Positions 1-49,173 of a stretch of DNA of 64,000 nucleotides are shown here, piece by piece. Each line of letters opens with the position of its first letter. Positions within the stretch are counted from its first letter, which is position 1. Below the pieces are notes generated by a model that was not told the DNA's origin, searched no databases, and saw only the letters and a list, made by a program, of their open reading frames with translations. The translations under genes were made by a program, and so were the position numbers. This DNA comes from an uncultured Coriobacteriaceae bacterium (GTDB lineage: Bacteria; Actinomycetota; Coriobacteriia; Coriobacteriales; Atopobiaceae), in the NCBI GenBank assembly GCA_948439405.1, contig CAOJNB010000002.1:1-64000 (forward strand), written 5' to 3'.

Positions 1-927
1 GCGGGCCTTGAGCACGCCGTCCTGGTGGATGCCGGAGGAGTGGGCGAAGGCGTTGGCGCCGACAATGGCCTTGTTGGGCTGCACGTTGATGCCCGTGATG
101 GAGCTCACGAGACGGCTGGCGCGCGTGAGCTCGCGGGTGTTGACGTCGGTGTGGGCGTCGAGCTCCTCACCGTGCATCTTGATGGCCATGACGACCTCTT
201 CGAGCGCGGTGTTGCCGGCGCGCTCGCCCAGGCCGTTGATGGTGCACTCGATCTGGCGGGCGCCGTTCTTCACGCCCTCGAGGGCCAGCGCGGTGGCCAT
301 GCCCAGGTCGTTGTGGGTGTGGACCGAGATGATGACGTTCTCGATGCCGATGACGTTGTCCGAGAGGCTCTTGATGCGCGCGCCGAAGTCCTCGGGCAGG
401 CTGTAGCCGGTGGTGTCGGGGATGTTGACCACAGTGGCGCCTGCGTCGACGGCGGCCTGGATCACGCGGATGAGGAAGTCCTGGTCGGAGCGGCCGGCGT
501 CCTCGGCGTAGAACTCGACGTCGTCGACGAAGCGGCGGGCGTAGGAGACGCAGTGGGCGGCGCGCTCGATGCACTCCTCCTCGGTGATGTTGAGCTTCTC
601 GCGCAGGTGCGAGGGCGACACGCCGAGGCCGGTGTGGATGCGCGGGCGGGCCGCCGTCTTGAGGGCCTCGGCGGCGACGTCGATGTCGTGGTCCACCGCG
701 CGGGTGAGGCCGCACACGACGCACTGGTCGCCGGCCATGCGGCCGATCTCGCTCACGCTCTTGAAGTCGCCGGGGCTCGAGACGGGGAAGCCGGCCTCGA
801 TGACGTCGACGTTGAGGCGGAGCAGCTGGCGGGCGATCACGAGCTTGTCGTCGGTGGTCATGCCGGCACCGGGCGACTGCTCGCCGTCGCGCAGGGTGGT
901 GTCGAAGATGGCGATCTTGCGGGTCAT
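1..927 (-). CDS. leuA: 2-isopropylmalate synthase, C-terminus cut by window edge
   Basis: It condenses acetyl-CoA with 2-oxoisovalerate, the first committed step of leucine synthesis in the cytoplasm. The first 309 codons are visible. The N-terminus has the [12 protein letters not shown] signature of the DRE-TIM metallolyase family. The metal-binding HTHND motif and the following GLGERAGN block are both intact. The start ATG has an AGGAGGA Shine-Dalgarno sequence just upstream. The C-terminal regulatory (LeuA dimer) domain lies beyond position 1 and cannot be assessed. A leader-peptide gene rich in leucine and valine codons lies 150 bases upstream in the same direction, so transcription attenuation by leucyl-tRNA supply is likely. 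Citramalate or homocitrate synthase are the usual confusions in this family; the leader favours leuA. Confidence 0.93.
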
Positions 928-1020
928 GGCTACTCCTCCTGGTACGTGGGCTTCCCTGCATGGAGCACGTCCGGGAGATGTGCGGTGCCATGTCCGCGTG
1001 GAGCCGTCGCCCAGACGTTC

Positions 1021-1092
1021 CGCGAACGCTGGCGCTGGCTGCTTCCTATGGCCGAGGCGAGGTCAGACGAGGAGGGCTAGCGCGCGTTCGCG
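1021..1092 (-). promoter_or_regulatory. Candidate leuA attenuator stem-loop
   Basis: In the leuA transcript the 9-base segment CGCGAACGC, at the end of the leader-peptide gene (1084-1092), is exactly complementary to GCGTTCGCG downstream (1021-1029). A ribosome paused at the Leu/Val codons would leave this segment free, and one finishing the leader would cover it. That is the expected antiterminator/terminator switch. I could not fold the region, and no clear U-run follows, so control could act on translation or Rho access rather than on an intrinsic terminator. A -10-like TACGAT lies at 1209-1214, about 30 bases before the leader ATG. Confidence 0.5.
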
Positions 1093-1178
1093 CTGGATAC
1101 GAGCAGTACTAGTAGGTCGAGGCCGCAGGCAGCCGGGCGCGGGGCGCCGGTGCGAGCGATGGTGGCCGTGACCTGCAT
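1077..1178 (-). CDS. leuL: leuA leader peptide (33 aa) with Leu/Val control codons
   Basis: This is a short reading frame preceded by a GAGGAGA ribosome site 6 bases before its ATG. Codons 20-27 read Leu-Asp-Leu-Leu-Val-Leu-Leu-Val and use CTA, CTA, GTA and GTA, codons that are rare in a genome this GC-rich. Such a run is what ribosome-stalling attenuation needs: when charged leucyl- or valyl-tRNA is scarce the ribosome pauses there. The frame stops with TAG, and the messenger then enters a region able to base-pair with the end of the leader gene. Leader peptides ahead of leuA are known in other actinobacteria (Streptomyces, Corynebacterium). The assignment here rests on position, ribosome site and codon content only. 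Confidence 0.8.
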   Translation of the reverse strand: MQVTATIARTGAPRPAACGLDLLVLLVSSANAR

Positions 1179-1278
1179 GCTGTTCTCCTCGTCGAATCGA
1201 ATGGGGTAATCGTAGCAGAACGGGCGCCTCGCGGCGGCAGGATTCCGTAAGGGGGGAGCGGGTCCGGGACCCGGACCC

Positions 1279-16866: not shown

Positions 16867-16895
16867 CCTCCCCTCCGCGAAGCGAGACCGGCATC

Positions 16896-16925
16896 CGGGC
16901 CGGGCGGGTCCTCCCGCCCGGCCCG
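16896..16925. terminator. Bidirectional 13-bp hairpin
   Basis: CGGGCCGGGCGGG and its exact complement flank a 4-base TCCT loop between two convergent genes, so the hairpin can end both transcripts. Confidence 0.75.
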
Positions 16926-16927
16926 TC

Positions 16928-28467: not shown

Positions 28468-28524
28468 CGGGACGGGACGCGGCGCTGCGGACGCTGCGGG
28501 CGCCGCGCGTCGACGCGGATTCGA

Positions 28525-28557
28525 GGGGCCGGGACGGCAGCGTCCCGGCCCCTTCCT
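28525..28557 (+). terminator. Intrinsic terminator after the UroD-family gene
   Basis: A perfect 12-bp stem (GGGGCCGGGACG and its complement) with a 4-base loop is followed by TTCCT. Confidence 0.75.
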
Positions 28558-28634
28558 CGTGCGCCGCCCGGGCGGGCTCCCCGCAGGCCCACCCGGGCGG
28601 GTCTTATTGCGGGGGCATGGATGTTCCTTTCGAA

Positions 28635-49082: not shown

Positions 49083-49099
49083 GCGGGCAATCTGAAGGT

Positions 49100-49130
49100 G
49101 GGGGTGCGGGTCGCCGCCACCCGCACCCCC
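49100..49130. terminator. Hairpin between convergent genes
   Basis: A 12-bp perfect stem (GGGGGTGCGGGT and complement) has a 7-base loop. Confidence 0.7.
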
Positions 49131-49173
49131 AATCGGCCCGGCATCGCGGCCCGCGCGCCCCCGCCGCCGGCTC

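Follow-up and report, generated by a model that had tools for sequence, protein, structure and literature searches.

The window, that is the whole stretch of 64,000 nucleotides analysed here, begins with the 5' part of leuA read on the minus strand. A short open reading frame (ORF) with a leucine-rich end lies ahead of it, together with three RNA segments, A, B and C, of which B can pair with either A or C. The elements of the locus are the following:

1..927, minus strand: leuA, coding the N-terminal 309 residues of 2-isopropylmalate synthase; the gene runs off the contig end
933..940, minus strand: ribosome-binding site of leuA, AGGAGGAG
1002..1040, minus strand: B:C hairpin (-19.6 kcal/mol), proposed U-less terminator
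1021..1029, minus strand: segment B, GCGTTCGCG, pairing with A (antiterminator) or with C
1077..1178, minus strand: leader peptide ORF of 33 codons, MQVTATIARTGAPRPAACGLDLLVLLVSSANAR, with ATG at 1178 and TAG ending at 1077
1084..1092, minus strand: segment A, CGCGAACGC, partner of B at the leader end; a ribosome standing on the stop codon covers it
1098..1121, minus strand: control codons CTC GAC CTA CTA GTA CTG CTC GTA, a Leu-Asp-Leu-Leu-Val-Leu-Leu-Val block
1185..1190, minus strand: ribosome-binding site of the leader ORF, GAGGAG, 6 nt 5' of the ATG
1209..1217, minus strand: putative promoter-like extended -10, TGCTACGAT, 39 nt 5' of the leader ATG

The partial LeuA protein matches NCBIfam models NF002086 (E 3e-148) and TIGR00973 (E 2e-140). 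Beyond Coriobacteriia and a handful of further actinobacterial MAGs, its closest matches in a genome scan are from Bacteroidota (Flavobacteriaceae and others; ~65% identity), a resemblance that hints at a horizontal origin of the gene. The single congener of the window's genome among the genomes compared (G001) has a LeuA 88% identical; it is a MAG labelled uncultured Coriobacteriaceae bacterium RUG14091 (L092) and, by its name, is probably of rumen origin.

The 33-codon frame and its good ribosome site had been proposed in an initial annotation of the sequence and are found as described. The peptide ends in LDLLVLLVSSANAR, and 5 of its last 14 codons are Leu codons. The CTA and GTA codons of the control block are indeed scarce in this DNA, where CTA represents 1.1% of Leu codons and GTA 1.6% of Val codons (34 large ORFs of the window); the leader has two CTA among five Leu codons (P ~0.001) and two GTA among three Val codons (P ~0.0007). 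A leader-type ORF (5 Leu in the last 18 codons) occurred in 1 of 1000 dinucleotide shuffles (p = 0.001). An extended -10 motif (TGNYANNNT) is found in the 90 nt that precede the leader start in 60/81 loci, the window included, versus 10% of shuffled upstream regions, which indicates that the leader probably belongs to the leuA transcript and disfavours a transcription start downstream of 1178, the circumstance named at the outset as speaking against the element. A scan of positions 700-2400 for a canonical terminator or a sigma-70 consensus gave none. Note that the leader ribosome site GACGAGGAG (1193-1185) is exactly complementary over 9 bp to CTCCTCGTC (1074-1066), just 3' of the leader stop.

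The exact 9-base pairing announced between the leader end and a downstream segment is that of A (1092-1084) with B (1029-1021), which are separated by 54 nt. The A:B duplex has p = 0.03 against dinucleotide shuffles and the fold energy of the whole region 925-1205 is ordinary (z = -0.92), so the case is built on comparison rather than on stability. In the congener locus L002 the leader end reads CGCGGACGCG and the downstream segment reads CGCGTCCGCG, a two-sided change that keeps the A:B pairing; covariation of the window's own A:B is that of this one congener. Both in the window and in L002, B can fold alternatively with the sequence just downstream. The effect of ribosome position was calculated by removing the RNA under the ribosome, with its front edge set 11-15 nt past the ribosomal A site, as an equilibrium estimate without shuffled control. 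For the window, a ribosome at Leu codons 20-25 gives A:B a predicted probability of 0.88-0.99 and B:C one of 0-0.06, while a ribosome at the stop codon gives 0 for A:B and 0.88-0.89 for B:C. With the ribosome at codon 26, the last one for Leu, the outcome varies with the assumed footprint. The computed switch of L002 is similar. The folds of the window and of L002 are, as modelled, the anatomy of a three-segment attenuator. The range first assigned to it, 1021-1178, is too short at both ends: the competing hairpin extends with its 3' half to 1002, and the probable promoter is at 1217-1209.

As it had been suggested that relatives be aligned, the regions upstream of leuA were read at about 120 loci of the order. 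Families are designated by presumed names: Atopobiaceae (Olsenella, Thermophilibacter and Atopobium; f1, the window's family), Coriobacteriaceae (Collinsella and Enorma; f10) and Eggerthellaceae (Gordonibacter and others; f2). A leader ORF whose end is rich in leucine, 80-220 nt 5' of leuA, is present in most cases, namely 63/81 loci of Atopobiaceae, 19/19 of Coriobacteriaceae and the single locus of a further family (f3). The 18 Atopobiaceae loci without leader, corresponding to about one fifth of the leuA genes of this family, were excluded once the automatic ORF calls of the family, a few of them imperfect (e.g., L064), had been read through. No leader precedes leuA in the 20 Eggerthellaceae loci or in ~19 readable loci of other families. 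Seven Eggerthellaceae ORFs that passed a crude filter have similar ends (e.g., LWYVKL), appear to belong to the 3' end of an adjacent gene and were rejected.

The position of the leader, its leucine end and its rare codons are conserved while the remainder of the peptide diverges. CTA accounts for 30% of leader Leu codons in Atopobiaceae and 74% in Coriobacteriaceae, versus 0.4% and 0%, respectively, in the first codons of leuA at the same loci. Valine is not conserved in the leaders of relatives. The conserved signal, judged from the sequences, is thus leucine, mostly as CTA, and of the leucine/valine attenuator originally put forward the leucine part stands and the valine part is abandoned.

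In Coriobacteriaceae the leaders typically end in GAUGCGCGCUAGGGU. The helix is formed there by GAUGCGCG and CGCGCAUC, the latter within the upper 5' arm of a hairpin (-25 to -37 kcal/mol) that has a U tail and starts 25-45 nt past the stop codon in 16/19 loci. Compensatory variants of A:B (AUGCGCG/CGCGCAU, AUACGCG/CGCGUAU, AUAGCGC/GCGCUAU) change 4 of 8 pairs on both sides, 95.7% of cells being paired, and the covariation score exceeds that of 500/500 shuffles and of every slid version. The terminator stem is likewise kept, and UAGGGU 3' of A can lengthen the pairing onto ACCC of the terminator lower arm. U-tailed terminators are also found in many Atopobiaceae, where, taken singly, only 13/63 loci have an A:B pairing significant against shuffles (p <= 0.05). 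The alignment of relatives therefore displays both the conserved leader codons and a stem with compensatory changes (L002 and Coriobacteriaceae). A covariance model built from Coriobacteriaceae finds the element in 30/30 genomes with leuA and in 0/31 without it (61 in total, the division being taken from comparison with a separate leuA survey); of the 30 matched genomes, 18 had gone into the model, which leaves 12 as independent cases. Applied to the genome of the window, the model detects nothing at leuA (its best hit, E 0.3, lies elsewhere) and the sequence there is therefore too diverged for it. A DNA search of plasmid records gave no match.

These features are best explained if leuA is controlled by a leucine-sensing, ribosome-mediated attenuator of the type known from enterobacterial leu (probability roughly 0.7). 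Transcription would start near 1200, 5' of the leader, from the promoter that we infer there, and a ribosome would translate the 33-codon leader behind RNA polymerase. When charged tRNA-Leu is short, above all the one reading CTA, the ribosome would wait at codons 20-26 and leave A, just ahead of it, free to pair with B; B would then be unavailable to C, so polymerase would continue into leuA. With plentiful leucine, the ribosome reaching the stop codon would cover A, and the GC-rich B:C hairpin would form and stop transcription before leuA. Computational support comes from the conserved leader, its rare-codon bias, the A:B covariation, the mutually exclusive folds and the U-tailed terminators of relatives; the leucine response in vivo is predicted from them.

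The output step is deduced, since no U-tract follows the window's terminator arm; none follows C in L002 either. Strong, near-perfect GC hairpins at gene ends of the window's genome are mostly devoid of U's. The scan that found them used mechanically chosen ORFs, so only hairpins located in short gaps count. Examples in the window are located at:

1278-1260: U-less gene-end hairpin
16867-16927: U-less gene-end hairpin
just below 23119: U-less gene-end hairpin
28468-28558: U-less gene-end hairpin
49083-49173: U-less gene-end hairpin
just below 57844: U-less gene-end hairpin

U-less terminators may thus be the rule in this genome. They resemble the I-shaped terminators described for mycobacteria, for which termination without U's is disputed (review PMC12288462). 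Their presence at many gene ends makes U-less termination plausible here and favours the view that the B:C hairpin ends transcription in the window's organism, Rho-dependent or translational output being kept as alternatives.

The same leader and folds could act through an output other than intrinsic termination, with B:C being a pause site or a Rho-dependent signal or affecting leuA translation. We consider this unlikely. The missing U-tract and the dominance of Rho-dependent termination in mycobacteria (PMC12288462) speak for it, and the frequent U-less hairpins at gene ends stand against it. Its translational version draws on Coriobacteriaceae, in which a conserved CCTCCTGC, at most ~80 nt before leuA (L196-L214), is complementary to the leuA Shine-Dalgarno (14/19 loci at p <= 0.05). 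The same sequence matches the terminator loop YUGCAGG, with which its flanking bases covary (permutation p 0.0016, a test that ignores relatedness), which makes translational control a possibility in this clade. Against its extension to the window, sequestration of the leuA ribosome site is at chance level there (p = 0.34) and a significant anti-Shine-Dalgarno is seen in 6/63 Atopobiaceae loci, also chance level.

For Coriobacteriaceae a second, translational lock is possible from this sequence arrangement: the terminator loop YUGCAGG would capture CCUCCUGCR, which would otherwise hide the leuA start, so that stalling of one ribosome would free transcription and translation together. A tentative generalization, which we hold to be possible rather than probable, is that leucine attenuators form a family specific to this clade and have diverged in their output: in the window's genus a U-less terminator that ribosome position would switch, in Coriobacteriaceae this double lock. 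In genus g33 (Olsenella/Thermophilibacter), from the window's family, a U-tailed terminator lies 3' of A:B without overlap with B, and equilibrium masking predicts no switching, the terminator forming in both states. In most Coriobacteriaceae masking likewise lets the terminator prevail at equilibrium, whether or not A is covered; switching in these would require a kinetic argument, and thermodynamics alone is insufficient in both groups.

The enterobacterial leu attenuator (leuL of Salmonella and E. coli; PMC1183508) shares with the leuA-preceding element of the window a leader with leucine codons, rare CUA control codons, alternative hairpins and leuA as first gene. In Salmonella leu, sensitivity fell when the CUA control codon was replaced by CUG (Carter et al. 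1986, as cited in PMC1183508). The window element differs in having three segments, with A at the leader end, instead of four, and in lacking a U-tract and an Rfam match. The actinobacterial precedents first invoked, Streptomyces and Corynebacterium, are less clean than supposed. The putative leuA leader peptide of C. glutamicum (PMC4046766), like the ilvBNC attenuator of that species, is assigned to attenuation and has consecutive Leu codons before leuA; C. glutamicum belongs to another class of the same phylum and its likeness to the window leader is by description. The leader mutations of S. coelicolor leuA are inconsistent with classical attenuation (PMC1262725), and the LEU element described for other Actinobacteria is a different RNA (Seliverstov et al. 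2005, PMC1262725). The latter combines a pseudoknot with a base stem of Leu codons and the leuA Shine-Dalgarno and has no terminator.

A regulator of the LEU-element type, perhaps protein-bound, would account for the leucine-rich leader ahead of the same gene, and the A:B pairing of Coriobacteriaceae, which crosses the terminator stem, would make a pseudoknot; it is nevertheless highly improbable. The defining base stem does not exceed chance (window p = 0.46; 2/19 Coriobacteriaceae and 6/63 Atopobiaceae loci), which led to rejection of identity with the LEU element, and relatives have U-tailed terminators where the published element has none. The crossing helices of Coriobacteriaceae are more simply read as alternatives than as a pseudoknot. 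A short frame that arose by chance, or that codes for a small protein and regulates nothing, as the moderate statistics of the window alone would allow, is very hard to reconcile with the conservation of position, leucine end and rare codons in an otherwise divergent peptide and with an element that tracks leuA exactly in Coriobacteriaceae.

The claim that no such attenuator had been described for this class agrees with a literature search, in which no paper linked attenuation, leuA and Coriobacteria (one 2010 attenuator survey lay outside the search), and with Rfam, whose models, including T-box and other cis-regulators, have no match at the window leuA and no credible match in 14 relatives. 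Elsewhere in the window, positions 14309-14229 (minus strand) match the Rfam aspS RNA motif RF02930 with 71.8 bits, well over its gathering score. Leucine attenuation of leuA as favoured here would provide common gut and rumen bacteria (relatives of Collinsella, Olsenella and Thermophilibacter) with a testable leucine sensor, for which no prior description was found, and one that makes the same rare CUA choice as enterobacteria in a distant lineage. The clade would offer a natural series in which the sensor is kept and the output changes, and the window's hairpin could serve to test the disputed U-tract-free termination in high-GC Actinobacteria.

Further variation was observed among the relatives compared. 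Loci L032-L034, L176, L180, L183 and L187 of g33 share a leader whose N-terminus is conserved (MARHEAADVRV-like), and a GC-rich hairpin separates this leader from the promoter. In genus g30, loci L074, L075, L078 and L085 carry a variant leader with CTTCGACTTACC or similar, followed by GGCCTC. In genera g30 and g35, GGCCUC in or near the leader is, by eye, complementary to GAGGCC adjoining a U-run, and a ribosome stalled at the Leu codons could there mask the terminator 5' arm directly.
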